Of a stretch of DNA of 33,060 nt, positions 2 through 32,848 are shown piece after piece. Where the stretch lies: NCBI GenBank assembly GCA_002753565.1, contig PEAM01000002.1, forward strand, positions 202,783-235,842, in the 5' to 3' direction. The position numbers and the translations under genes were made by a program. The notes beneath the pieces are model-generated. The model saw only the letters and a program-made list of their open reading frames with translations. It was not told the DNA's origin and ran no database searches. The DNA comes from Magnetococcales bacterium (GTDB lineage: Bacteria; Pseudomonadota; Magnetococcia; Magnetococcales; JADFYX01). The stretch's first letter is position 1. Each line of letters begins with the position of its first letter.

Positions 2-2140
2 AAGGACTACACCCGCAAAGTACACAGCTCAGCCACCTCGCTGCTGCGGATTATCAACGATATTCTGGATTTTTCCAAGATCGATGCCGGTCAATTGGAT
101 ATGGAGGCCACCGACTTTACCCTGGAGGAGGTGCTGGGGAGCATGGCTGCCATGATCTCCCTTAAAGCCCAGGAGAAGCAGTTGGAGTTTCTGATGGAGA
201 CCGCGGTGGATATTCCGCCGAGTCTGGTGGGGGACCCTCTGCGGTTGGGACAGATTCTGATCAACCTGGGCAATAACGCCATCAAGTTTACCCAAGCGGG
301 AGAGGTGGCTATCTCGACGGAGGTGGTGGCGCGGGATGAGAGGGGGGTGCGGTTGCAGTTTACCGTCCGCGATACCGGTATCGGCATGACCCCAGAGCAG
401 AGGGCGGGACTTTTTCAACCCTTTGCCCAGGCGGACGCCTCCATTACCCGTCAATATGGCGGCACCGGCCTGGGGTTGACCATCTCGCAACGGTTGATTG
501 AGCTGATGGATGGCGAGATCCGTGTGGAGAGTGAAAAGGGGGTGGGGAGTCGGTTTATCTTTACGGTACAGTTGGGGGTCTCCAATCGGGTGGTGGAAAA
601 AAGCCTGCTCCCCTCATCCGATCTGCGAGGCATGCGTGTCTTGGTGGTGGATGATAACGAAAGTGCCAGAAATGTCCTCTCCGACTATCTGGCCTCCTTC
701 ACCTTCAAGGTGAGTAAGGCCGTTGATGGCAGAGAGGCCATGGTTGCCGTCCAAGAGGCGGAAATGATGGAGGAGCCGTTTGATCTGGTGATGATGGACT
801 ACATGATGCCGGAGATGGACGGTATTACCGCAACCACCAAAATCCGCGATGAGCTGGGGCTTAAACAGGCACCGATGATTATCATGGCCACCGCCTACGG
901 CGAGGAGAAAATGGTCAAGCGGGCCATAGCGGAGGCTCGGGTTGATGGTTTTTTGGTTAAACCCATCAACCAAAGTTTGCTGTTTGAGTCCATTATGGAG
1001 GTGTTTGGAAAAAATCGTCAGGAGGGTGACGGAGGGGGAGTGGACTTTACCAAGTGTGAAGACTACCAATCGCTCCTGTCCGGCGCCCACCTTCTGCTGG
1101 TGGAAGATAATGAGATCAATCAGCAGGTTGCCCGGGAGCTGCTGGAGCAGGCCAACATTTCTGTGGTGCTGGCAGAAAACGGCAAAGAGGCGCTGGAGCG
1201 GCTGGAGGAGGGTGCATTCGATGGTATCTTGATGGATATCCAGATGCCGGTGATGGATGGATTGACCTGCTGTAAGAAGATTCGCAAGGATGGCCGTTTT
1301 GTCGATCTGCCCATCTTGGCCATGACCGCCAACGCCATGTCAGGAGATCGGGATCTCTGTCTTGCAGCCGGCATGCAGGACCATATTGCCAAGCCCATCG
1401 ATCCCGCCGCCCTGTTTTCCACCATCAGCCGTTGGATCAAACCTGCCAATCCCCAGGTTACTCCTCCCCCAGCCGAGAGGGAGGTAAAACCAGAGGCTTC
1501 CCCCACGCTTGACATACCCGGTATCGACACCCAATCTGGTCTGCAGCGGGTTGGAGGCAATGAGGAGACCTATCGACGTGTGTTGGCTAAATTTCGCAGC
1601 AACCAGGGAGAGATGGGGTCGGCTATTGCCCAGGCCCTGGATAGAGAGGATCGGCTTGCTGCTGAACGGCATGTTCACACCCTCAAAGGGGTCTCTGCCA
1701 CCATCGGAGCCATGGCCCTGCATGAGCGGGCCAAAGAGCTGGAGTCTGCCATCAAAGGCTCGACCAAAGAGGGTAAGGTGGAGAATCTGCTTCAGGATAC
1801 CGTAGAAGAGCTGAGCCTGATTTGTGAAACCCTGGATGAGAGGCTGCCTGCGGTTGAAATGACGCCCCCGGTCAGAGCCATTGGGGAGGAGAGCCTAGAG
1901 GAGATTCAAAAGCGTGATCGTCTGCTGCGTAAGGTGATGGAGCAGTTGGATATTTTTGATGCGGGGGTGGATAAGACCCTACGGGACTTGCGCCGTGGAG
2001 GTGGCTCCCAAGAGCTGATGGATTGGTTGGAGACGTTGGAGGAGAGAGTCTCCCACTATGATTTTGAGGGTGCGGTGACGACTCTGCAGCAGTGTATGAC
2101 GGCACTCAAGGTAGATCTGGAGGTTCAAAATGGAGAATAA
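2..2140 (+). CDS. Hybrid histidine kinase, 5' end outside window (HisKA-HATPase-REC-REC-Hpt-C-terminal module)
   Basis: The frame is open from base 2, so the N-terminus and the phospho-accepting His box lie upstream of the window. The first visible residues are the second helix of the dimerisation domain ([12 protein letters not shown]). Next come the HATPase N box (NLGNNAIKFT), DTGIGM and GGTGLGL. Two receivers follow: the first at about 628-1005 with its acceptor Asp codon at 797, the second at about 1084-1440 with Asp at 1235; both keep the Lys of the KP motif. An Hpt domain has its His at 1676 (HTLKG). A short C-terminal module ends the protein, with HYDFEGA at 2054-2074. The phosphate route is inferred to be His-Asp-His from the domain order; what the kinase senses cannot be seen. 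The gene overlaps the next start by 11 bases, so the two are probably translationally coupled. Confidence 0.95.
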   Translation, partial: KDYTRKVHSSATSLLRIINDILDFSKIDAGQLDMEATDFTLEEVLGSMAAMISLKAQEKQLEFLMETAVDIPPSLVGDPLRLGQILINLGNNAIKFTQAGEVAISTEVVARDERGVRLQFTVRDTGIGMTPEQRAGLFQPFAQADASITRQYGGTGLGLTISQRLIELMDGEIRVESEKGVGSRFIFTVQLGVSNRVVEKSLLPSSDLRGMRVLVVDDNESARNVLSDYLASFTFKVSKAVDGREAMVAVQEAEMMEEPFDLVMMDYMMPEMDGITATTKIRDELGLKQAPMIIMATAYGEEKMVKRAIAEARVDGFLVKPINQSLLFESIMEVFGKNRQEGDGGGVDFTKCEDYQSLLSGAHLLLVEDNEINQQVARELLEQANISVVLAENGKEALERLEEGAFDGILMDIQMPVMDGLTCCKKIRKDGRFVDLPILAMTANAMSGDRDLCLAAGMQDHIAKPIDPAALFSTISRWIKPANPQVTPPPAEREVKPEASPTLDIPGIDTQSGLQRVGGNEETYRRVLAKFRSNQGEMGSAIAQALDREDRLAAERHVHTLKGVSATIGAMALHERAKELESAIKGSTKEGKVENLLQDTVEELSLICETLDERLPAVEMTPPVRAIGEESLEEIQKRDRLLRKVMEQLDIFDAGVDKTLRDLRRGGGSQELMDWLETLEERVSHYDFEGAVTTLQQCMTALKVDLEVQNGE

Positions 2141-5100
2141 CCCCCCCAAACCGACCATCTTGATTGTGGACGATACCCCGGGAAATCTGGATGTGTTAAA
2201 GGGGGTTCTGATCGACGACTATCGGGTTCGCCTTGCCATTAACGGCGCGTTGGCTCTGCGTTTGGCGGTCATAGAGCCGCAACCGGACCTGATTCTGCTC
2301 GATATCATGATGCCGGAGTTGGATGGTTATGAGGTGTGCCGACGGCTTAAACAGAATATCGCCACGGCGGATATTCCGGTTATTTTTGTCACCGCCAAAA
2401 GCGATGATGAGGATGAGCTTCTCGGCCTGCAGATTGGAGCGGTAGACTATATCATCAAACCTGTCAACCCATCCATTGTCAGGGCGCGGGTCAAAACCCA
2501 CCTCACCCTGAGACATTTCAACCAGGAGATGGAGGCAAAGAGTCAGCGTCTTTACGAAATCAATGAACGGCTCTCCTCCAGCATGGAGCAGCTCTCCGCC
2601 TCGGAAGAGCGCTTTCGCTCTCTGGTTCAGACCATTCCCGATATTGTCTTCAAGATTGATTGTGAAGGGAAATTTATTTTTCTCAACAAGTCGATTGAAC
2701 GGTTGGGCTACCACCAGTCCGACCTGATAGGCAAACATTTTTCTGAGATCATCCACAGCTCTGATGTCTCCAATGCCAGTCTGGACAAGGTATTGGAACG
2801 CATTGGCAAGGGGACTGAAAACCCGGAACAGAAGGTTTTTGATGAGCGGCGATCCGGGTTGCGGATGACGGTGGGGTTGGAGATTCGTCTGCGCACCAAA
2901 TCGGGCCAAGAGGCCGAGTATGCCGAAGTGCGCAACATCGACGACCATACCGTCGGTGTGGAGGTCAACAGTACCGGTCTGTACGGAGAGGTGGGCCAGG
3001 ATAGCTCCTACCATTCCCGGCACTATGTGGGGACGGTTGGGGTTATTCGGGATATTACCGACCGGCAGAAGATCCAGAAAGCCTTTGTTGAGGAGAAAAA
3101 GCTGCTCCGGCAGTTGATCTCTGCCGTCCCCCTGCCCATCTTTTTCATGGAGGGCCAGGGTAGTCTGCTCTTTTCCAACGATGCCTTTCAGCAGTTTGCC
3201 GGTTTGACAGAGGAGAATACGGCCATCCCCTCTCTGGCGGCTCTGTTTGACGGCGAGGGGGCAAAAGATCTGCAAGATCAGCTTGTGGATCTGATCGACG
3301 ATACACAGAGCAACCGCAATATGGGTGACATTCAGTTGCTAGACAAAGAGAACAGGCCCTGTTTCCTGACGGTTATCCTCACCAAGTTTCAAAAAGAGAA
3401 CCACCCTGAACCCATGGTGATTGGTGTGTTGGTGGATGTGACAGAGCAGCGGGAGTTTACCGCTCAGTTGGTTGAGGTGAGCCATCTGGCTGAAGCCATG
3501 GCGCGCAAGGCCGAGGAGGCCAATCAGGCCAAGGGGGATTTTCTGGCCAATATGAGCCATGAGATTCGCACCCCTCTCAATGCCGTCATCGGTCTCTCCC
3601 ACCTCTGCCTGCAGACCGATCTCACCACCCGGCAGGAGGACTACCTCCAGAAGATCAGCCTCAGCGCCAAGAATCTCCTCTCTCTGCTCAACGATATTCT
3701 GGATTTCTCTAAAATTGAGGCAGGCAAGCTCTCCATGGAGACGGTCCCTTTTTCCTTGGAGGAGGTGTTGAGCAGTCTGGCAGCTATTTTGAGTGTCAAG
3801 AGCCAGGAGAAGGGGCTGGAGCTGCTGTTGGAGGTGGGAGCAGAGGTGCCCACCTCTTTGCGGGGAGACCCCCATCGTCTGCGGCAGGTTCTGACCAATC
3901 TGGGGGGTAACGCCCTCAAGTTTACCGAGCAGGGAGAGGTTGCCATCCGGGTTGAGGTGGTGGAGCAGGGGGATGGAACTGTTTTGCTGGGGTTTCGGGT
4001 GCGTGATACCGGTATCGGCATGAGTGAAAAACAGCGGAGTCGGCTGTTTCAGGAGTTTTCACAGGGGGACGCTTCTACCACTCGCAAATATGGGGGAACG
4101 GGGCTGGGGCTGGTTATCAGTAAACGGTTGGTGGAGATGATGGAGGGGGAGATTTGCTTTGAGAGCGTGCTGGGAGAGGGGACCCAATGTGACTTTACGG
4201 CCCGCTTCCTACTCGATAGCGACCAGGAGCCGACCCAGCCGATTCTGCCGGAAGAGATCCGCCGTTTACGGATTCTGGTGGTGGATGATAACAGTTCGGC
4301 CAGGGAGATCATGGCCTCTTATCTGCAGAGTTTCGGCAATCAACCCCTCTGTGTGGAGAGTGGCGAACAGGCTTTGGAACAGTTGACACAATCGGATGGG
4401 CAGGGGGCCCCTTTCGATCTGGTGCTGCTGGCTTGGAAAATGGCTGGCATGAATGGGATGGCGGTGGCTCGGGAGATTAAGGGTAAACGGGATTTGACGG
4501 TCACCCCTCGGATTATCATGGTCACCGCCTATGGTCGGGATGAGGTGATCACCTCTGAGCAGGAAAACGGGCTTTTGGATGGCTATTTGATGAAACCGGT
4601 CAGCTTGATCGCCCTCCATCAAGCTCTCTCTCTCACCTACGGTTATAGCTCTTCAAGCACCCTGTCAGCGGCAGAGGCCGACCCCCTGCCCAGCGACCTT
4701 TCGGGCTATAGGATTTTACTGGTAGAGGATAATGAGATCAACCAGCAGGTGGCTCGGGAGCTGTTGGCAATGGTCTCCATTGAGGTGACAACTGCCAACA
4801 ACGGCCTGGAGGCCATCGAGCGGCTGGCTGAAGAGCGTTTTGACGGTATCTTGATGGATCTGCACATGCCGGTCATGGATGGTTTTCAGGCTACCGAAAA
4901 GATCCGCCAGACCAAGAGTGCCGAGCAGTTGCCGATTATTGCCATGACAGCCAATGCCATGGCCGGTGATCGAGATCGATGCCTGGCCTCCGGCATGAAT
5001 GACCACATCGCCAAACCGGTGGTACCCGAACGGTTATACGCAACGTTGATCCGCTGGCTTGTGGAGAAGCCGACCCCAACCCCCAGACCCCAACCCACTC

Positions 5101-5760
5101 CACCGCCCATCAAGCCGACGGAGATGCCCACCCTTCCCCTGCCTCCCCTTCCCGGTATTGATCGCAAGGCCGGGCTGGGCAATATGGGGGGTAATCAGGC
5201 TCTTTACCGGGATGTTCTGCTCAAGTTTGCCAAAAATCAGGGGGGAGCCTGTCAGCGAATGGCGCACTATCTGGCGGAGGAGGATGGTGCCTCTCTGGAG
5301 GGGGCTGCCCATGAATTGAAAGGGGTTTGTGCCACCCTCGGAGCCAACAGTCTGGCTCAACATGCTGCCCGGATAGAGGGGTTGGCCAAACAGGCGGATC
5401 TGCCAGGGAACAGGCAGCAGGTTCAGGAGTTGTTGGAGAGGTTAACCGGAGAGTTGACCCGTTTGTTGGAGATGATTGATCGGGTTGTGAAGGGCAAAGA
5501 GGCCAAGAGGCCTCCGTCGGGTAGAGGGAAAGCCAAGGTTTCTGCCGAGGTACTTGGCCCGCTTTTTCGACAGGGGGCCGGTTTGTTGAAAAATTTTGAT
5601 GCTTCCATTGAGCAGGTTGTCGAAAAGATTGCCGCCCTGGTGCCAGATGGGAGGGGGTTGGGCCATCTGGAGGCCATTCAGGCCGCTCTTGATGACTACC
5701 AGTTTGAAGCAGCTCTGACTCACTTGACACGATGGGCCAAAGTAGAAGGGGTCAATTTGG

Positions 5761-5774
<14 letters not shown>
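2130..5774 (+). CDS. Hybrid histidine kinase, REC-PAS-PAS-HisKA-HATPase-REC(degenerate)-REC-Hpt
   Basis: A 1214-residue protein with no membrane segment, so probably cytoplasmic. Order: N-terminal receiver (about 5-125, acceptor D58); a PAS domain with a long insertion (about 155-320); a second PAS (about 328-455); HisKA with H477 in MSHEIRTP; HATPase ([23 protein letters not shown]). A second receiver (about 708-835) has Ala768 where the acceptor Asp belongs. An intact third receiver has D910. Hpt has H1061 (HELKG), and the shared C-terminal module lies at 1142-1210 (DDYQFEAA). The ATG at 2130 has a GGAGG Shine-Dalgarno at 2119-2123 and overlaps the preceding gene by 11 bases. The N-terminal receiver suggests input from another kinase, perhaps the upstream one; that is inference. 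A Pro-rich linker at about 980-1005 separates the third receiver from Hpt. Confidence 0.95.
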
Positions 5775-10092
<4,318 letters not shown>

Positions 10093-10140: not shown

Positions 10141-11829
10141 ATGGAAGAGAAAAAAGTCATCTCACTGCTCTTTGCCACGCTCTTGATTATTGTGGCGGTC
10201 TTGGTCGTTCGGGTCTATGAAAGCCCCGTCATGAATGTCAAGCGTGTCGGTGTAAAACCAGAATTGATCCATCTGCGCCTGGGGGTGAATATCCCGGAGG
10301 AGACTGCTCTTTATGCGGCTGCTGTACGTTTTTCTGAGGAGGTAGCCAGGAAAAGCAGTGGTCGGTTGAAGGTTACGGTCCACCCCGGTCAGAGTTTGGG
10401 CAATGACAACCAGATGGTCGAGATGGCTCGCCGGGGGGAGTTGGCCCTGGTTCTAACCCCTACCGCCAAGCTTAGCACGGCTGTTCCGGCCATGCAGGTG
10501 TTGGATTTGCCTTTTTTCTTCTCCTCCCCAGAGGCGCTCTATACCGCATTGGATGGAGAGTTTGGCCAGCAGTTGTTGGCAAAGCTGGACCCCATCGGGC
10601 TGAGAGGGGTGGCTTTCTGGGGAAACGGTTTTAAACATTTTATTGCCAATCGGCCTCTGCATAGCCCATCAGACTTTTCCGGTCTGACCATGCGGATTAT
10701 GAAAAGTCCCATTATTCAAGAGCAGTTCGAGCTGTTGGGTGCCACCACCCTTCCCATCGATTTTCACTCTACCTACAAAGCCCTGGTGGATGGGGTGGTG
10801 GATGGTCAGGAGAATCCGCTGGTTGCCATTGTCTCCATGGATTTTCTTACCGTCCAATCCCACCTGACCCTGAGCAATCATGCCTATCTGGGCTATCTGT
10901 TCTCCATCAGCAAAAAGCGGTTGAATGAGCTGGCCCTGGATGATCAACGCATTCTGGTGCAGACCGCAGAAGAGATGACTCACTGGGAACGGGAGGAGAC
11001 CCTGCGCCGTGAGCAGGGGTTTCTTGACAAGATTCGGCAGGCGGGGATGGTGGTTGGCCAGTTGAGCCAGGAGGAGATCCAGGTATTTCAGGGGGTATTG
11101 AACCATCTTTCCCGCAAATTCGAACCCATACTGGGCGCCGATATCATCTCTTTGGCCCAGGAGAGCATTCTCCTGAGCAGGTTGGAGAGTGACACTCCAA
11201 CTCCCCTGCTCATCGGTCTTGATCTCGACCTCTCTCTCATCAATCCGCAAGCCTCTTTGGCGCTCAAGCAGGGGGTGGAGTTGGCGATTCATGAGATCAA
11301 CCAGGAGGGTGGGGTGTTGGGGCGTCCCCTGAGCCTGATTGCCAAAGATAACCAGGCCATTCCCGAGCGTGGTCGGGATAATGTGGTTAATTTTCATCTG
11401 TTCGACAGCCTGATCGCCATCATCACGGGTAAGGCCTGGCCGGTTTTATCGGCGGAGCTGGAGCTGGCTGGGGAGCTTGGCATTCCTCTCCTGTTGCCTT
11501 GGGAGAAGAGCCAGGGGCCGGATATAGAGGGGGATCAGCCGTCACAATGGGTGGTCCATTCCCCGTCGATCAACTGGCTGTTGGAGGAGGTTCTCCAGCG
11601 GGAAAAACAGCTATTGGATGCCTATCAACACTATTTTCACCTGAAACCCAACCGGAAGCTGCTCAGGAAAGCGGGCTTTTTTTATGGGTATGAACTGGTC
11701 TATCTGTTGAAAGAGGCCATTCTCAAGGGTGGGGATCTGGATCGGGAAAGGGTCATGGCCCATCTGGTTGCAGGGGTAAAACAGAGAGAAAAAGAGGGCC
11801 AGGCTCTCTTGAGAACGGAGGCTCGCTAG
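10141..11829 (+). CDS. Membrane-anchored TRAP DctP-type binding protein fused to a shortened type I periplasmic binding protein domain
   Basis: A 562-residue protein. A single hydrophobic helix (about 5-25) with no clear lipobox or cleavage site looks like a signal anchor. Residues about 45-345 resemble TRAP transporter solute receptors (DctP/PF03480): an early Ala-rich helix ending in FSEEV, GQSLGND, the ...LPFFF... segment, GFKHF, and a VVDGQENP motif. Residues about 358-550 resemble leucine/amino-acid binding proteins (KQGVELAIHEIN, GGVLGRPL, GIPLLLPW) and then jump to a typical end helix (FFYGYELVYLLKEAI). The middle of that fold is missing: about 190 residues against a usual 340-380. No TRAP permease subunits are nearby. 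The sensor kinase begins 9 bases downstream, so a role as a periplasmic ligand receptor for that kinase is more likely than transport (inference). Its own Shine-Dalgarno is weak. Confidence 0.85.
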   Translation: MEEKKVISLLFATLLIIVAVLVVRVYESPVMNVKRVGVKPELIHLRLGVNIPEETALYAAAVRFSEEVARKSSGRLKVTVHPGQSLGNDNQMVEMARRGELALVLTPTAKLSTAVPAMQVLDLPFFFSSPEALYTALDGEFGQQLLAKLDPIGLRGVAFWGNGFKHFIANRPLHSPSDFSGLTMRIMKSPIIQEQFELLGATTLPIDFHSTYKALVDGVVDGQENPLVAIVSMDFLTVQSHLTLSNHAYLGYLFSISKKRLNELALDDQRILVQTAEEMTHWEREETLRREQGFLDKIRQAGMVVGQLSQEEIQVFQGVLNHLSRKFEPILGADIISLAQESILLSRLESDTPTPLLIGLDLDLSLINPQASLALKQGVELAIHEINQEGGVLGRPLSLIAKDNQAIPERGRDNVVNFHLFDSLIAIITGKAWPVLSAELELAGELGIPLLLPWEKSQGPDIEGDQPSQWVVHSPSINWLLEEVLQREKQLLDAYQHYFHLKPNRKLLRKAGFFYGYELVYLLKEAILKGGDLDRERVMAHLVAGVKQREKEGQALLRTEAR

Positions 11830-11838
11830 GCAAAGCTG

Positions 11839-14409
11839 ATGACCACATTAAATAAAAAAAGCCTGAAAAGTCGGCTGGTTCTCCAATTTGCCACCTTTGT
11901 TGCCACCTCCTTGTTGTTGGTCGCTGGTCTGATGACCTTTCAGACCGTCCAGATTGTCAAGAAGAGTGTGCTCTCCGAACAGAAGAAAAATGGTCAAAAC
12001 AGCTTGCTGAGACTGAATGAACATCTGGACTCTTTGGTGGAAAATGTTCAGCAGCTCTCCAAAAATACCCTGATCATCAACGCTCTGATCGATCGATCGA
12101 AGCGGGGGAATTTTCTACCCCAACTCGCCGCCAATTTTGCGACCGGACGGGATGTGAAGGCTTTTATGTTGGTGGATTACAGCGGCCATCCTCTTTTTGT
12201 GGATCGGGAGATTCCCCCCAACTATAACGACTCCCTGCCTCTGCGTGAGGCGTTGGGTTTGGATCGTGGCTCAGTCATGGTGGATGTGCAAAAAAAGAGC
12301 CTGATCATCAGCCACCCCATCCGCTACTACAATACCACCCAGGGCGCGGTGATTGTCCATTTTGACTTTCCTGAAATCCTGAAAGATACCGCCTCGAGGT
12401 CGGATCAGGGTCGGCAGGCCTTTTTTATCAAAAAGGCCTTTATATATGGGCAGGGAGAGAGCCAGCTGACGGAGACGGTCTCTCTGACGGTCTACCCTTC
12501 CATGGAGGATGGTTGGGTTAGAAAGCTGAACATGAGCCTGATCATCACCCTGGATCGTGCTCTTTTTCTGGAGCCTATCTATGAAGCTGTCATTGATGAG
12601 GTTCTGCTGATTTTGGCTATTCTGATCGGGGCCATTCTTCTGGCTTTTCGCATTGGTCAAAGGAGTGCCGATCCTATTTTAACCCTCTGTCAGCGGGTGC
12701 GTGACTGTAGCCGGGAGAGCGGTCTGCAGATCAGCCCGGTGGGGACGGGGGATGAACTGGAGGAGCTGGCTCTTATCTTTGAAGGACGTACCCGGGAGCT
12801 CTGGAAAATTCAGGAAGATCTGGAACAACGGGTGGCAGAGCGGACCCGAGATCTTTCGGCCTTGAATGAGAGCCTGGAGAGAGAGATTGATGAACGCCGC
12901 CAGGCAGAAGCGGAGGCGATGCAGAGCCAGCAGATGATGGAGCATGCCCAATCCATCGCCCACCTGGGGAGTTGGGAGTGGGAGATCCGCTCGGGGCGGT
13001 TCACCTGGTCGCCGGAGGTCTATAAAATTTTTGGTCTGGATCAAAAAAACTGCCAGCCTGATTATGCCCTGTTTCTCGACTGTCTCCATCCAGATGATGT
13101 CGAGAGAGTCAAAGAGGCGGTGGAGGATGCTCTGGAGTCTGACAGGGATGACTATACGGTGGAGCATCGGATTGTCCGCCCCGATGGCCGGGAGCGATAT
13201 GTCCATGAGGTGGGGGAGATCTACCGGGATAAGGCCGGCTCTCCCCGGCTGATGTTTGGTACCATCCACGATATTACCCAGCGGAAAATGTTTGAGTTGG
13301 AGATCAGCCAGGCCCGACAGGAGGCCGAAAAGGCCAACCGGGCCAAAAGCCATTTTTTGGCCAATATGAGCCATGAAATTCGCACCCCCATGAACGCCAT
13401 CATCGGCTTGAGCCATCTTGCGCAGCAATTTCCCCTGCCCCCCAAGCAGGCGGACTATCTGAAAAAAATTGATTTATCTGCCAACACCCTGTTGAAACTG
13501 ATTAACGATATTCTCGATTTTTCCAAAATGGAGGCGGGAAAGCTGGCGATGGAGCAGCAGCGCTTTGTCCTGGCTGAGGTGCTGGAAAATCTGGTTGCGG
13601 TGATTCATGCCAAGTGTGTCGAGAAAAAATTGACCTTCACCCTGAATATTGCTGACGAAGTCCCCGATCATTTGATTGGTGATGCCCTGCGTCTGGGCCA
13701 GGTGTTGACCAACCTGACTGCCAACGCCGTCAAGTTTACCCAAAAGGGAACGGTCACCCTCTCCGCCGTCCTGCTGGAGAGGTCTGAAGAGTCGGTGAAG
13801 CTTGAGTTTGAGATAGCCGATACCGGTATTGGCATGAGTCAAGAGCAGGTTTCTCAGCTTTTCCAATCCTTTCATCAGGCCGACCCCACCATTACCCGTC
13901 AATATGGCGGCAGTGGATTGGGTTTGGTTATCAGCAAGCGGTTGGTGGAGATGATGGCCGGGGAGATCAGAGTGGAGAGTGAGGAGGGGGTGGGGAGTCG
14001 TTTTACCTGCACGATTCCGTTTTTGTGTTCCAAAGAGGAGAAGCGCTCTCAGGGTGGTACCCTGTCGAGTAAGCGACCTGAGCTGTTATTCAGCACCATG
14101 ACGGCGGCCCGACCGCTCCCCGACTCGAACCAACAGGGTGAGGAGGAGGGAGAGCCGTTGGATCTGGTCGCCTTGACACCGCTTTTTAACGAAGCGCTGA
14201 ATCTGCTCCGGGTTTTCGACTCGGCGGTAGAGAGCGTGATTGAAAAGATTGCCCAGAAGGTAGGTAACCAATCTCGCCATGAAAAATTGAAATTACTCCA
14301 GGAGGCACTTGCAGACTATGATTTTGAGTCCTGCCACTCTATATTATTGGCATGGGGTCGTGAAGAGGGAATGGAACTGGAGTCGAGTGACCATGAGGCT
14401 AAACCATGA
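11839..14409 (+). CDS. Membrane sensor histidine kinase without receiver or Hpt (Cache-like sensor-HAMP-like-PAS-HisKA-HATPase)
   Basis: An 856-residue protein with a membrane helix at about 12-35, a periplasmic region of about 215 residues with Cache-like features ([12 protein letters not shown], then [10 protein letters not shown]), and a second helix at about 253-275. A HAMP-like stretch and a coiled coil ([10 protein letters not shown]) lead to one PAS_3-type domain (about 365-490), HisKA with H512 (MSHEIRTP), and HATPase ([23 protein letters not shown]). Unlike the other large kinases here it has no receiver and no Hpt. After the ATPase domain and a linker of about 60 residues it goes straight to the shared C-terminal module (about 779-848, DYDFESC). 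It follows the binding-protein gene by 9 bases and overlaps the next gene as ATGA. The three genes therefore look like receptor, kinase and response regulator of one pathway. The pairing is inferred from position. Confidence 0.93.
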
Positions 14410-15476
14410 AGGAGCATGAGGAATTGACGCAAAAAACGATTCTTATTGTCGATGATACACCGGAAAACCTGGATGTGATGAAAGGGGTTCTCAGCCCCTA
14501 TTATCGCATTCAAATTGCCACCAATGGCAGGCTGGCCATCAAAGTCGCCCTCTCATCCTCTCCCCCCGATCTGATTTTATTGGATGTGATGATGCCGGTG
14601 ATGGATGGCTATGAGGCTTGTCGGTACCTGAAGGAGGATGAGCGTACCCGGCATATTCCCATTCTGTTTGTGACCGCTAAGGCGGAGGTTGAAGATGAGA
14701 CCAAGGGGTTTGAGTTGGGGGCGGCGGACTATCTGATCAAACCCATCAGCCCCCCCGTTGTACTGGCACGGGTCAAGACCCATTTGGCCATGAATGACCG
14801 AATTCGCCTGCTGGCTGATGAGGTAGCCTCACGCACGGCACAAATTCAGCAGCGCAATACCCAGCTGGAGGAGACCCGTATTGAGGTGATTCATCAGTTG
14901 GGGCGGGCGGCGGAATTTCGGGATAACGAGACCGGCCTGCATGTGATGCGGATGAGCCGGTTTGCCTATCTTTTGGCGTTGAAGTCGGGTTTGAGCGAGC
15001 CGGAGGCCGTCGCCCTGATGCATGCGGCTCCTCTGCACGATGTGGGCAAAATTGGCATCCCCGACCATATTCTTCTCAAGCCTGGTAAACTGACGGCGGA
15101 GGAGTTCGAGCTGATCAAGGGCCACGCCAAGATGGGGTATGATATCATTGGCAAGCAGAGTGCGGACATTTTAAACATGGGCGCTCTCATCGCCTATACC
15201 CATCATGAAAAGTGGAACGGTTCGGGCTATCCGCGGGGGTTGAAGGGGGAGGAGATCCCCCTGGCGGGTCGTCTCTGTGCGGTGAGTGATGTTTTCGATG
15301 CCTTGACCTCTGTCCGGCCCTATAAAAAGGGCTGGTCGGTAGAGGATGCCTTGGCTTTGATCTCCCGAGAGGCCGGAGCCCATTTCGATCCGAGGCTGGC
15401 CAAGCTGTTTATTGGCTTGCGACCAGAAATTGTCGAGATTATGGAGCAGTATCAGGATAGGCCGGATACCATGTAG
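14406..15476 (+). CDS. Response regulator with HD-GYP output (probable c-di-GMP phosphodiesterase)
   Basis: A 356-residue protein of the RpfG-like receiver/HD-GYP type. The receiver (about 8-130) has acceptor D60 in [12 protein letters not shown], the acidic pair in IVDDTPEN, and KPISPP after the conserved Lys. A coiled linker joins it to the HD-GYP domain (about 155-345), which keeps H211-D212 followed by GK (LHDVGKIG), the [11 protein letters not shown] block with G274-Y275-P276, and DVFDALTS. Family knowledge: HD-GYP enzymes hydrolyse c-di-GMP to pGpG or GMP using a metal centre held by these residues. The ATG overlaps the kinase stop codon as ATGA, so coupling with that receiver-less kinase is very likely. 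I cannot prove activity, but no catalytic residue that I can check is lost. Confidence 0.95.
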
Positions 15477-28380: not shown

Positions 28381-29718
28381 ATGAAAACTTTCGGTCGTTT
28401 TTTTCTTCCCCTGATTGCTCTGGTTATCTCTGGCATGGTGGGCCTCTATTTTTTAAAAAGTGGGCCAGAGCCCAAGCGAAAACCGCCAGAGCCTACTCTT
28501 CTTAGCGTCGAAACCCTCACGATTCAGCCCGGCTCTCTTCCGGTCTGGGTGCGGTCTCAGGGGGTGGTTGCCCCACGTGTTCGGACACTGCTTACCTCTG
28601 AAACCGCCGGACGTCTGGTGGCGGTCTCCGAGCAGTTTGCCCAGGGGGCCTATTTTGAAAAAGGCGAACTGTTGGCGCATGTCGACCCGGAACCTTACCA
28701 TCTTCAAGTTGCCAACCTGGAAGGGTCGCTGGGTATGGTGGAGGCCCGTCTGGCAGAGCTTGACGTTACCCGCGCCAACCTTTCCGAAATGTTGGTGATT
28801 GAGTCTCAGCTTCTCAAGCTGTCTCAGCGGCAGTTTCAGCGCATTTCCCGGCTGCATAAGGAGGGCAATGTAGCCGAAAGCAGGCTGGAGCAGGGCGAGA
28901 GTGAACTGCTCCTTCGTCGTGCGGCTCTGCGCAACCTGCAAAACGCCTTGGCCTTGATCCCCACCCAACGCCGTACCCTGGAGGCGGAACAGAAGCTTAA
29001 ACAGGCCCAAAGGGACGCAGCCCTTCTCGACCTGGAGCGGACACGGGTAGTGGCCCCTTTTTCGGGTCGAGTGGTTAAAAAGCAGGCCAACCTGGGTCAG
29101 TTTGTTGCCAAAGGGGCTGTTTTGGGTGAAATTCACGCCCTGGAAGATTGGGAGATCCGCTTGCCGGTAAGCGATAGACAGCTAGCCCGGCTGGATCTCT
29201 CTCTGCTACCCCCTGCCGAGGGGGGCGGCGCCAACCAGACCATCGCCGTGCGCTTAACCGCTGGTCAAGGGGCTGCCAGGCAGAACTGGGATGGGGAGAT
29301 TATCCGGGTGGAGGCCAATGTCGATGTGCAAACCCGGCAGGTGGTGTTGGTTGCCCGAATTGTCACCCCACCCACGACGGCTCCCTCGAGAACGGGGCTG
29401 CTGGATGGTCAGTTTATGGAGGCGGATATTCAGGGGGTGAGGTTGGACGGGGTTTTTATCCTGCCACGCCACACCGTCGGACCGGGAGATCGGGTGTTGA
29501 TGGTCACGCCGGAAAACCGACTGGCTCGCCGGGTGGTGGAGGTGATCTGGCGAGACGGACAGTCGGTGGCGGTCGAGTCGGGGCTCAAGAGTGGGGAGCG
29601 GATCTCCCTGACGCCGCTGCCCTATGCGCCGGATGGCGCGCCGGTTCAGGTGCAGGGCGAGAAGCCCGTCAGCCCCAAACAGGGACAGCAAAAACCCAAA
29701 AGAGAGCGGGAGTCCTGA
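28381..29718 (+). CDS. RND efflux periplasmic adaptor subunit (membrane fusion protein, HlyD/AcrA type)
   Basis: A 445-residue protein with one N-terminal hydrophobic helix (about 5-25) and no lipobox Cys, so it is probably anchored by the helix. The barrel-sandwich half motif (LLTSETAGRLVAV...GELLAHVDP) is followed by a long alpha hairpin (about 110-218) rich in Leu, Gln and Glu. The second lipoyl half follows (VVAPFSGRVVKKQANLGQFV), then beta-barrel and membrane-proximal segments. Family role: it bridges the inner-membrane RND pump and an outer-membrane channel. The permease gene begins one base after its stop, so the two form an operon. No TolC-like outer-membrane gene is present in the window. 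No strong Shine-Dalgarno precedes the ATG. Substrate unknown. Confidence 0.93.
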   Translation: MKTFGRFFLPLIALVISGMVGLYFLKSGPEPKRKPPEPTLLSVETLTIQPGSLPVWVRSQGVVAPRVRTLLTSETAGRLVAVSEQFAQGAYFEKGELLAHVDPEPYHLQVANLEGSLGMVEARLAELDVTRANLSEMLVIESQLLKLSQRQFQRISRLHKEGNVAESRLEQGESELLLRRAALRNLQNALALIPTQRRTLEAEQKLKQAQRDAALLDLERTRVVAPFSGRVVKKQANLGQFVAKGAVLGEIHALEDWEIRLPVSDRQLARLDLSLLPPAEGGGANQTIAVRLTAGQGAARQNWDGEIIRVEANVDVQTRQVVLVARIVTPPTTAPSRTGLLDGQFMEADIQGVRLDGVFILPRHTVGPGDRVLMVTPENRLARRVVEVIWRDGQSVAVESGLKSGERISLTPLPYAPDGAPVQVQGEKPVSPKQGQQKPKRERES

Positions 29719-29719
29719 G

Positions 29720-32700
29720 ATGCAGAGCCTGATCGATTGGTTTGCCCGCAATCCTGTCGCTGCCAATCTCCTGATGGTCATGATTCTGGTCCTGGGGGGG
29801 TGGTCCATGACCCAGCGGCTTCCTCTGGAGGTTTTTCCTGAGTTTGAGCGAGATATTGTCAATATTGCCGTAACCTATCGGGGCGCCTCCCCGGAGGAGG
29901 TGGAGGAGGCGGCGGTTATCCGTATTGAAGAGGCGGTGGCTGATCTGAACGGAATTGAATCCATCATCTCCTCGGCCTTTGAAGGGCAGGGATTGGTACA
30001 AATCGAGGTTCAGAAGGGCCGTAATCCCCGTGAGATTCTGGATGATGTCAAAAACAAGGTGGATGCCATCACCACCTTTCCCGATGAGGTGGAGCGGCCC
30101 ATCTTCAGTGTTCAGGAGTTTCGCCGGGAGGTCATCAGTGTGGTGGTGGCGGCGGATTTGCCAGAAGAGTCTTTGGGCAAGCTGGGCGAGCGGGTTCGGG
30201 ATGATCTGATCAATCTGCCGGAGGTAACCCAGGTGGAGCTGACCGGGGTTCGACCTTTCGAGATCTCCATCGAACTCGGCGATGCCGCGCTGGAGCGGTT
30301 TGGTCTGACGTTCGATCAGGTAGCAGCCGCCATCCGTCGCCACTCCGTCGATCTGCCGGCAGGCTCTCTGCGCACCCTGGAGGGAGAGATCACCCTGCGG
30401 ACCAAGGCCCAGGCCTATCGGGGGGCCGACTTTGGTCGTATTCCCCTTCTGACCCGTGATGATGGTACCCGCCTTACCTTGGGAGAGATTGCGGTTATTC
30501 GTGACGGTTTTGAGGAGGAGCCGCTCTTTTCACATTTTAACGGTAACCCAGCGGTTTTAATCGAGGTCTATCGAACCGGCCAACAGAATGCCATGGATAT
30601 TGGCGCGGCGGTGCGGCGCTATGTGGAGGAGAGCCAGGCGAACTTTGCTCCGGGGGTTTCGGTAGACTATTGGCGGGATAGATCACAAATTGTGCGCCTG
30701 CGACTGGAGACTTTGTTGACCAGTGCCTGGCAGGGGGGGCTTCTGGTCTTTCTCTGCCTGACCCTCTTCTTGAGGCTTTCGGTGGCTATCTGGGTCTGTG
30801 TTGGTATCCCCATCAGCTTTATGGGGGCGTTGATCCTGATGCCGCAATTTGGGGTGACCATCAATATCATCACCCTCTTTGCCTTTATTCTGGTTTTGGG
30901 CATTGTCGTGGATGATGCCATTATTACCGGAGAGAATATCTATCGCCGAATGAAAGAGGGCGGGGTCGGGCTGGAGTCGGCTATTTTGGGCACCCAGGAG
31001 GTCTCCGTACCTGTCACTTTTGGTCTGTTGACCACCGTCGCCGCTTTTCTCCCCCTGATGTTCATGGAGGGTCAACGAGGCCCCATTTTTGCCCAGATTC
31101 CCCTGGTGGTCATTCCGGTTTTGCTCTTCTCCTGGGTGGAGTCCAAACTGATTCTACCGACTCATCTTGCTCATCTCAACATCCACAAGGAGGATCAGCC
31201 CGGTCGGTTGCAGCGGTTTCAGCAGGCTTTTGCCAATGGGCTGGAGCGGGGCGTTGACCGCTATTATCAGCCCTTTTTGGAGTGGAGCTTAAACCACCGC
31301 TATCTCACGTTTGTTCTCTTTGCCGGCTTCTCTTTTCTGGTGATCACCTTTGTGGCCAGTGGTCGCTTTGGCTTTACCTTTTTTCCTCGGGTGCAGAGCG
31401 AGACGGCTCGGGCGACCCTGACCATGCAGACCGGTACGGCGGTGGAGCGAACCGAAGCCCATGCCCAACGTATGGAAGCGGTGGCGGTGGCGTTGCAAAA
31501 CAAATATCGAGACCCCCAGAGTGGTGAATCGGTCATCCGAAATGTATTGACCAGTGTCGGCTGGCAGGCGGGTCGCTCCAGTCGAGGAGGGGATTCGCAA
31601 CTGGCCCAGATCAGTCTGGAGTTGGTGCCACCAGAAGAGAGAACCATGACAGTCAACACCTCGGATCTGGTCCGGGAGTGGCGGATGGGCATCGGGGCGA
31701 TTCCGGGTGCCAAAGAGCTGAATTATCGGGCTGAAATCGGCCGGGGAGGGAACCCTGTCGAGGTGCAGCTTATGGGGCAGAATTTTGATCAGTTGAGTAG
31801 CATTTCCGTCCAGATACGCGAGTGGCTGACCCAGTATGATGGGGTGTTTGACATTCAAGACAGTTTTGAAAAAGGCAAGCCGGAGATCACCCTCTCTCTG
31901 CGTCCTGAGGCGGAACTGTTGGGGTTGTCGGCCAGGGATCTGGGGCAGCAGGTGCGCCAGGCCTTTTTTGGTACCGAGGCGCAACGTATTCAGCGGGGGC
32001 GGGATGATGTTCGGGTGATGATTCGCCTGCCATTGGCAGACCGAAAAAGCCTCTCTACCTTGGAAGGGCTTCGTATTCGCACCCCCGATGGTCACCTGGT
32101 TCCCATGGAGACCGTCGCCCATGTTGCCCTGGATCAGGGATTTGCCACCATTCGTCGGGTTGATCGCAACCGGGCGGTCAATGTCATGGCGGATGCCGAA
32201 AAGGGGCGGGTTAATGTCAATGCCATTGCAGCGGAGTTGCGGGTTTTTCTGGATGAGTTGATGGTCCGTTATCCGGGTGTACGCTATAGCTTTGAAGGGG
32301 AGTTGAAGGAGCAGCAGGACTCTTTTCGGTCTCTGCTGATGGGGGTGGGGTTTGTTCTATTCTGCATCTACGGCCTGCTGGCTGTACCGTTACGCTCCTA
32401 TTCTCAGCCTATTGTGGTGATGTTGGTGATCCCCTTCAGCCTGGTTGGTGCAGTGCTGGGCCATATCATTTTAGATATGAATTTAAGCCTGCTCAGCATT
32501 ATGGGTATGCTGGCTTTGGCGGGGGTGGTGGTCAACGACAGTCTGGTGTTGGTGGATTGGATCAACCGCACGGTTGCCGACGGAAAAAGCCCCTTTGAGT
32601 CAGCCCGAACCGCTGGAGCGGCCCGTTTCCGACCCATTCTACTCACCTCTCTGACCACCTTTTTCGGCCTGACCCCTCTGCTCCTGGAAAAAAGTACCCA

Positions 32701-32848
32701 GGCACAGTTTTTGATTCCCATGGCGGTCTCTCTGGGGTTCGGCATCCTCTATGCTACCTTGTTGAGCTTGGTACTGGTCCCTTCGGGTTTTTTGATTCTG
32801 GAGGATATCAAACGGTTTGGCGGCAAGATTTTTGGCAGGAGCGGATGA
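29720..32848 (+). CDS. RND efflux permease (AcrB/HAE-like family)
   Basis: The frame is open from 29624, but the permease fold starts at the ATG at 29720, with GGGAG at 29708-29712 seven bases upstream. That gives 1042 residues, the normal length for the family. Typical features: N-terminal WFARNPVAANLLMV helix, RLPLEVFPEFE, a first large periplasmic loop, a helix bundle with D398-D399 in GIVVDDAIITGENIYRRM (the usual proton-relay pair), a second periplasmic loop, and a C-terminal bundle containing GVVVNDSLVLVDW. At the site where AcrB carries the relay Lys this protein has Asn939, as in a subset of the superfamily. It should export a small hydrophobic or amphiphilic compound using the proton gradient. 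Neither sequence nor neighbours identify the substrate. Confidence 0.95.
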   Translation: MQSLIDWFARNPVAANLLMVMILVLGGWSMTQRLPLEVFPEFERDIVNIAVTYRGASPEEVEEAAVIRIEEAVADLNGIESIISSAFEGQGLVQIEVQKGRNPREILDDVKNKVDAITTFPDEVERPIFSVQEFRREVISVVVAADLPEESLGKLGERVRDDLINLPEVTQVELTGVRPFEISIELGDAALERFGLTFDQVAAAIRRHSVDLPAGSLRTLEGEITLRTKAQAYRGADFGRIPLLTRDDGTRLTLGEIAVIRDGFEEEPLFSHFNGNPAVLIEVYRTGQQNAMDIGAAVRRYVEESQANFAPGVSVDYWRDRSQIVRLRLETLLTSAWQGGLLVFLCLTLFLRLSVAIWVCVGIPISFMGALILMPQFGVTINIITLFAFILVLGIVVDDAIITGENIYRRMKEGGVGLESAILGTQEVSVPVTFGLLTTVAAFLPLMFMEGQRGPIFAQIPLVVIPVLLFSWVESKLILPTHLAHLNIHKEDQPGRLQRFQQAFANGLERGVDRYYQPFLEWSLNHRYLTFVLFAGFSFLVITFVASGRFGFTFFPRVQSETARATLTMQTGTAVERTEAHAQRMEAVAVALQNKYRDPQSGESVIRNVLTSVGWQAGRSSRGGDSQLAQISLELVPPEERTMTVNTSDLVREWRMGIGAIPGAKELNYRAEIGRGGNPVEVQLMGQNFDQLSSISVQIREWLTQYDGVFDIQDSFEKGKPEITLSLRPEAELLGLSARDLGQQVRQAFFGTEAQRIQRGRDDVRVMIRLPLADRKSLSTLEGLRIRTPDGHLVPMETVAHVALDQGFATIRRVDRNRAVNVMADAEKGRVNVNAIAAELRVFLDELMVRYPGVRYSFEGELKEQQDSFRSLLMGVGFVLFCIYGLLAVPLRSYSQPIVVMLVIPFSLVGAVLGHIILDMNLSLLSIMGMLALAGVVVNDSLVLVDWINRTVADGKSPFESARTAGAARFRPILLTSLTTFFGLTPLLLEKSTQAQFLIPMAVSLGFGILYATLLSLVLVPSGFLILEDIKRFGGKIFGRSG

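Follow-up and report, generated by a model that had tools for sequence, protein, structure and literature searches.

A membrane-anchored DctP-LivJ fusion protein beside a dCache-like receptor: a probable co-receptor family and its shortened copy in a Magnetococcales genome

The stretch of DNA analysed here, referred to as the window, comprises 33,060 nucleotides of a Magnetococcales genome. An ORF of 562 codons with an ATG start was confirmed at positions 10141-11829 of the forward strand. As an earlier note on this DNA had claimed, the first part of the encoded protein is a DctP domain: residues 50-327 match PF03480 with 252.6 bits (E 6e-75), well above chance level, over model positions 4-283 of 286, and the same part matches NCBIfam TIGR00787 (232 bits, cut-off 175). 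The arginine region of DctP proteins (GLTMRIMKS) and the QENP motif (VDGQENP) are both kept. The second part had been described as a LivJ-type domain without its middle, which agrees with the alignment to homologues and with a partial Peripla_BP_6 (PF13458) match of residues 374-473, covering only model positions 20-113 of 343 (38.2 bits, cut-off 31.7). By the Pfam model, the protein does not contain a complete two-lobed LivJ-type domain. The proposed single-helix membrane anchoring also stands, as the N-terminus exhibits one hydrophobic helix and no clear lipobox. The same is observed in 33 of 35 homologues tested, and the helix occupies residues 3-27 in the structure model of homologue L059 as well.

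The kinase gene (11839-14409) begins with an ATG 9 bases after the stop codon of this ORF, as previously stated. It encodes two transmembrane helices around a dCache-like domain, followed by PAS, HisKA and HATPase domains, with no Pfam match to a receiver or Hpt domain. The REC-HD-GYP protein encoded next is the probable output partner of the kinase. The absence of transporter subunits nearby was likewise confirmed, with no TRAP or ABC permease gene present in the window. The features of the locus are listed in Table 1.

Table 1. Features of the fusion gene, the adjacent kinase gene and the following response regulator gene in the window.
Feature	Coordinates	Strand	Basis
N-terminal membrane anchor, uncleaved, residues 3-27	10147..10221	+	Mean hydropathy 2.87; position conserved across the family
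DctP domain, residues 50-327	10288..11121	+	Pfam, NCBIfam; ligand motif FxGLxxR ... VDGQENP retained
LivJ-type N-terminal remainder, mainly lobe 1	11206..11601	+	PF13458 positions 20-113 of 343
First deletion site, ~123 residues (homologue residues 496-618)	11601..11602	+	Alignment with about 20 full-length homologues
C-terminal LivJ remnant, last lobe-1 helices, YGYELVYLLKEAI	11602..11787	+	Aligned to homologue residues 619-685
Second deletion site, ~23 residues (homologue residues 686-708)	11787..11788	+	Alignment
Receptor input (Ksens), dCache-like periplasmic domain between two transmembrane helices	11839..12708	+	Model pLDDT 84.3; weak Pfam dCache_1
PAS, HisKA and HATPase_c domains of the partner kinase	13000..14022	+	Pfam
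C-terminal tail of the kinase, ~75 residues, kinase-2-like	14173..14397	+	Segment blastp; best match L027_6 (kinase-2 type), 46%
REC-HD-GYP response regulator	14406..15476	+	Pfam Response_reg and HD_5

Longer versions of the protein are encoded in related genomes. About 30 of them, mostly of 720-760 residues, were found in the 60 genomes searched, and those tested contain a complete DctP domain and a complete Peripla_BP_6 domain (126-133 bits; for example, positions 2-318 of 343 at 133 bits). A wider scan of 84,980 species, using a query alignment across the DctP-LivJ junction, gave a list of taxa that constitutes a lower bound. There are at least about 59 distinct fusions of ~720 residues with both domains complete, and they occur in Magnetococcales, other Pseudomonadota, Campylobacterota, Desulfobacterota and Nitrospirota, that is, in at least four phyla. 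Outside the order, matches of full coverage include, among those listed, Sulfurimonas, Thiomicrorhabdus, Chromatiales, Burkholderiaceae, Azoarcus and Marinobacterium lutimaris, together with Campylobacterales, Helicobacteraceae, Desulfobulbaceae, Desulfuromonadales and Nitrospirae. Thiomicrorhabdus sp. 6S3-12 (L063), Marinobacterium lutimaris DSM 22012 and Azoarcus sp. L1K30 are named strains that carry the fusion. The model of the full-length homologue L059, predicted confidently (pLDDT 87.7, pTM 0.86), comprises the anchor helix, a linker, the DctP domain and the LivJ domain, and its DctP half matches solved TRAP binding proteins, with 4p47 as the best match (target-normalised TM 0.90).

The constant neighbour of these fusions is the gene that carries the sensor region. 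Wherever sufficient DNA was available downstream (47 of 47 distinct fusions, the window copy among them), the sensor gene comes next on the same strand, at a distance of -12 to 118 nt. These loci were picked by the fusion alone and scored with profiles for both halves and for the sensor region; four further fusions, located at contig ends, were left out of this count. The reverse search, starting from the sensor and covering Pseudomonadota, Campylobacterota, Desulfobacterota, Nitrospirota and two orders, gave 16 further loci, with a full fusion directly upstream in 13 and a LivJ-only protein in the other three. One of the 13 (L206) appears to lie on the same contig as L077, hence the total of about 59 given above. 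Few genomes encode the sensor itself. It was present in 33 of 398 Pseudomonadota genomes, with 28 of the 33 coming from the same genus or order as the window, and in 5 of the 298 genomes from the phylum of the Sulfurimonas member. With two exceptions, the strong sensor matches in Pseudomonadota sit at fusion loci; the only two strong sensor genes with no adjoining binding protein, L178 (G036:C166) and L179 (G006:C422), both come from Magnetococcales. The earlier note had proposed that two binding-protein families were combined into a dedicated extracytoplasmic co-receptor. This conserved pairing with one receptor rather than with a transporter (47/47 and 16/16) supports the proposal well for the family. 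Gene adjacency would also fit a shared operon whose products do not touch each other. In L186 (7639-10549) and L213, the receptor appears to be divided: a sensor-only protein is followed directly by a separate kinase or GGDEF frame, through either a natural split or a frameshift.

The structural model of the sensor region (pLDDT 84.3) exhibits a long N-terminal helix and two PAS-like modules between two transmembrane helices. A sequence search of the PDB with the sensor alignment gave no match; the fold search gave matches, the best being dCache domains, including the periplasmic domain of LuxQ (target-normalised TM 0.72 for 4jgo_B and 0.55 for the LuxQ structure 3c30). Pfam dCache_1 (PF02743) scores 14-31 bits in the members, under the curated cut-off of 45 bits, so the term dCache-like refers to the fold. 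The sensor model also weakly matches 5ere, an extracellular receptor of 540 residues, which is a possible one-chain analogue.

The sensor region is fused to different outputs depending on the lineage. In most lineages, it is followed by HisKA-HATPase, usually with receivers and an Hpt domain. In Sulfurimonas, Thiomicrorhabdus, Campylobacterales, Helicobacteraceae and Marinobacterium, it is followed by GGDEF (GGDEF-EAL in the three members tested with Pfam). Among the kinase-type loci, 14 of 36 contain an HD-GYP gene, usually REC-HD-GYP, within an average of 15 kb of DNA per locus. As the window genome exhibits 12 HD-GYP matches in 3.87 Mb, this frequency is above chance, though not universal, and these neighbours make a cyclic-di-GMP output plausible for both the kinase and the GGDEF types. 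According to a review of cyclic-di-GMP signalling, SBP_bac_3 is the only domain of the periplasmic-binding-protein clan that has been studied in such networks (PMC8846402).

Since DctP and LivJ are both transport families, the fusion could be an ordinary binding protein serving a TRAP or ABC permease encoded elsewhere, with the adjacent receptor merely regulating that transporter. This explanation is highly improbable. None of the fusions with annotated flanks has a permease beside it, the association with a DctQ/DctM permease that is expected of DctP proteins is not observed, and the sole constant neighbour across phyla is the receptor gene; moreover, the anchor appears uncleaved. The earlier note had considered a TRAP permease elsewhere that depends on the fusion, which is unlikely given that the only complete DctPQM operon seen in the window genome has its own DctP. 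A possible exception is a DctM-type permease of the same genome that has no obvious adjoining binding protein (L225 2824-4938, contig C16 of G000) and is encoded beside a flagellin gene. However, it is of the one-chain DctM-DUF3394 type, which uses TAXI proteins.

The reading that best fits the fusion family is a dedicated co-receptor unit that operates in the manner of LuxP-LuxQ and NspS-MbaA. In the autoinducer-2 system of Vibrio, the periplasmic binding protein LuxP docks on the periplasmic tandem-PAS/dCache-type domain of the hybrid kinase LuxQ, the domain matched by the sensor model of the family. LuxP, in contrast, is single and soluble, belongs to another binding-protein family and contains no DctP or LivJ fusion. 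DctB of Bacillus subtilis is a DctP-type protein. According to a passage of PMC6978683 that cites Graf et al. 2014, DctB is an accessory extracytoplasmic co-receptor required by the sensor kinase DctS for C4-dicarboxylate sensing. Unlike the fusion, DctB carries no second binding protein in its chain and acts together with the transporter DctA; the C-terminal LivJ domain has no counterpart there. In Vibrio cholerae, the periplasmic binding protein NspS detects polyamines for the membrane GGDEF-EAL protein MbaA (PMC8967002), a layout shared with the GGDEF-EAL members of the family. Nevertheless, NspS is one periplasmic binding protein, whereas the fusion joins DctP and LivJ, is membrane-anchored and mostly drives kinases. 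In the three-component systems XylFII-LytS and CuaD-CuaSR, a binding protein encoded beside a sensor kinase signals via the extracytoplasmic domain of that kinase (PMC10384115); these binding proteins are sugar-binding and single-domain, and they act on a different receptor. RmcA is a hybrid receptor that uses an SBP_bac_3 domain in the same chain for sensing (PMC8846402). In RmcA, as in the hybrid receptor with SBP_bac_3 encoded at 5761-10092 of the window, binding domain and receptor form one covalent chain, whereas the fusion is a separate, anchored protein with two domains. Binding-protein co-receptors are thus known one by one. In the open-access literature searched, with most subscription papers and preprints outside this scope, no earlier description was found of a DctP-LivJ fusion or a tandem solute-binding co-receptor, nor of what the sequences suggest here, a fused, membrane-anchored version from two families with a constant receptor domain and swapped outputs.

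With regard to the half that meets the receptor, pairwise divergences over 57 loci were compared. The correlation is 0.83 between LivJ and the sensor, 0.68 between DctP and LivJ, and 0.68 between DctP and the sensor; these values partly reflect shared descent and are used as supporting evidence. LivJ thus tracks the sensor better than DctP does, despite DctP and LivJ sharing one chain. A sister arrangement was also observed (L180-L185, L189, L216, L217 and L221), in which a LivJ-only protein of ~400 residues, with no DctP part, is encoded directly upstream of a related dCache-like receptor of the HK or GGDEF type. In subclades of the L041 and L047 types, the Arg/QENP ligand motif of DctP is lost and LivJ is kept, and the DctP domain of these members may be structural. 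Taken together, the LivJ-only arrangement, the divergence correlation and this motif loss suggest that the receptor was first partnered by LivJ, to which DctP was added later as a further input. The L047-L053 group forms a second paralogous clade in Magnetococcales, with a DctP half devoid of the Arg/QENP motif. Its receptor comprises dCache-PAS and a degenerate Hpt-like tail with no recognisable kinase domain, and a separate REC-histidine kinase gene adjoins it.

Based on these observations, we propose a conserved two-gene sensing unit in which the fusion is a non-transport co-receptor for a dCache receptor, and to which the window copy belongs as a derived and probably impaired version; we assign this reading a probability of roughly 0.78. 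The first gene would encode a periplasmic protein anchored in the inner membrane, with a DctP domain followed by a LivJ-type domain, and the second a transmembrane receptor with a dCache-like periplasmic domain. The fusion, which most likely feeds no transporter, would capture one or two extracellular solutes and dock on the dCache domain, mainly via its LivJ half. Docking would then switch the cytoplasmic output in a presumably ligand-dependent manner, through a hybrid histidine kinase in most lineages and through GGDEF-EAL in others, and the REC-HD-GYP genes that lie nearby in many loci of the kinase type suggest cyclic-di-GMP control for both types. More tentatively, and with somewhat less than an even chance, the unit may be a two-input co-receptor that integrates a DctP ligand, for example an organic acid, and a LivJ ligand before one dCache receptor with phosphorelay or cyclic-di-GMP outputs. 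Single lineages would have lost one input, either the DctP motif or, in the window genome, the LivJ lobe. A fused, two-domain, anchored co-receptor that accompanies a single receptor domain across at least four phyla, with an output that differs by lineage, provides a testable model of how two nutrients might be integrated extracellularly by bacteria, which the named strains make accessible.

The window copy departs from this family in both genes. Relative to the full-length homologues, the alignment indicates that ~123 and ~23 residues are missing from the fusion, in addition to small extra gaps. In the topology of the leucine-binding protein, the ~123-residue segment corresponds to most of lobe 2 and the strand returning to lobe 1. 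With these lost, the cleft that closes on the ligand cannot form in the LivJ half. The earlier note had described the short LivJ part as one component of the proposed co-receptor. Reading it as a design feature, an original half-domain, was rejected, as the other members with DNA covering the relevant region all exhibit the whole LivJ fold and none of the other genomes examined carries the shortened form. The shortening thus appears to be a recent deletion found only here, which the earlier note itself had named as a finding that would refute its reading: the half-sized domain reflects a local loss, not design. The nearest relative (G002, 62% identical) could not be used for dating the deletion, since its contig stops before the deletion site (L023).

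Parts of the partner kinase are missing as well. Up to the ATPase domain, it resembles kinase 1 of related loci, and its final ~75 residues are similar to the kinase 2 tail; the receivers and Hpt domain of kinase 1, and kinase 2 itself, are absent between the kinase and the REC-HD-GYP gene. In the closest relatives, the kinases are hybrids that contain REC and Hpt domains, and the receiver-less kinase, with which the earlier note had suggested looking for conserved synteny, is therefore peculiar to the window copy. Simple recombination within shared kinase domains was rejected as the cause, since the junction lies after the ATPase domain and has a unique linker sequence. We propose instead, from the sequence, a deletion ending in the kinase-2-type tail. 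The ~75-residue helical domain at this C-terminus (14173-14397), which has no Pfam match, is also present at the ends of the proteins encoded at 2130-5774 and 5761-10092.

The window copy is probably a derived and impaired member of the family, and three accounts of its fate are considered here as sub-cases, not as competitors of the claim made for the family. Given the two deletions in the fusion gene and the loss of REC and Hpt from the kinase, both genes could be turning into pseudogenes, the remaining frames being open simply because the deletions are recent. The C-terminal remnant, which keeps just 7 of 12 conserved columns, and the lack of a second copy of the fusion gene in the genome agree with such decay. 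Nevertheless, neither gene contains a frameshift or stop, both deletions in the fusion gene are in frame, and the HisKA, HATPase and HD-GYP partners look intact. The DctP part keeps 95 of 106 conserved columns, or 90%, which is the level of the lowest intact members. On balance, decay is a real possibility that falls a little short of even odds.

Alternatively, the protein could be functional in a minimal form, with the DctP half sensing its ligand and the remaining LivJ lobe serving the kinase as a docking adaptor. Two separate deletions have left the reading frame uninterrupted up to its stop codon, 9 nt upstream of the kinase, and the DctP domain is intact. In addition, the conserved columns of lobe 1 are mostly kept (20 of 23 in the N-terminal LivJ part), the divergence of this part is normal (ratios of 0.64-0.92, against a mean of 0.78 for intact pairs), and LivJ is the half that co-diverges most closely with the sensor. 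This account is unlikely, however, because the strand returning to lobe 1 has also been deleted, the C-terminal remnant is poorly conserved, the partner kinase is itself reduced and the form is absent from the other genomes examined. If the window copy still signals, it would have to rely on its intact DctP half together with separate response regulators, for example that encoded at 14406. It is very improbable that, as the third account holds, the gene is in reality full length and its truncation was produced by the assembly. The assembly is indeed a draft of 92 contigs and the region is rich in related kinase genes, but the deletions are in frame and lie outside the repeated kinase parts, and the kinase exhibits a unique linker sequence at its junction.

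The surroundings of the locus are rich in sensory genes. Positions 1-28107 of the window form a dense array of kinases fed by binding proteins (MHYT/dCache, SBP_bac_3 twice, NMT1 with SBP_bac_3, and 4HB-HAMP), which also includes two REC-HD-GYP genes, one REC-HK gene and one REC-SpoIIE gene, so that many extracellular inputs are gathered in one cluster. Right behind this array, at 28381-32848, genes for an HlyD-type adaptor and an AcrB-type RND pump are found.
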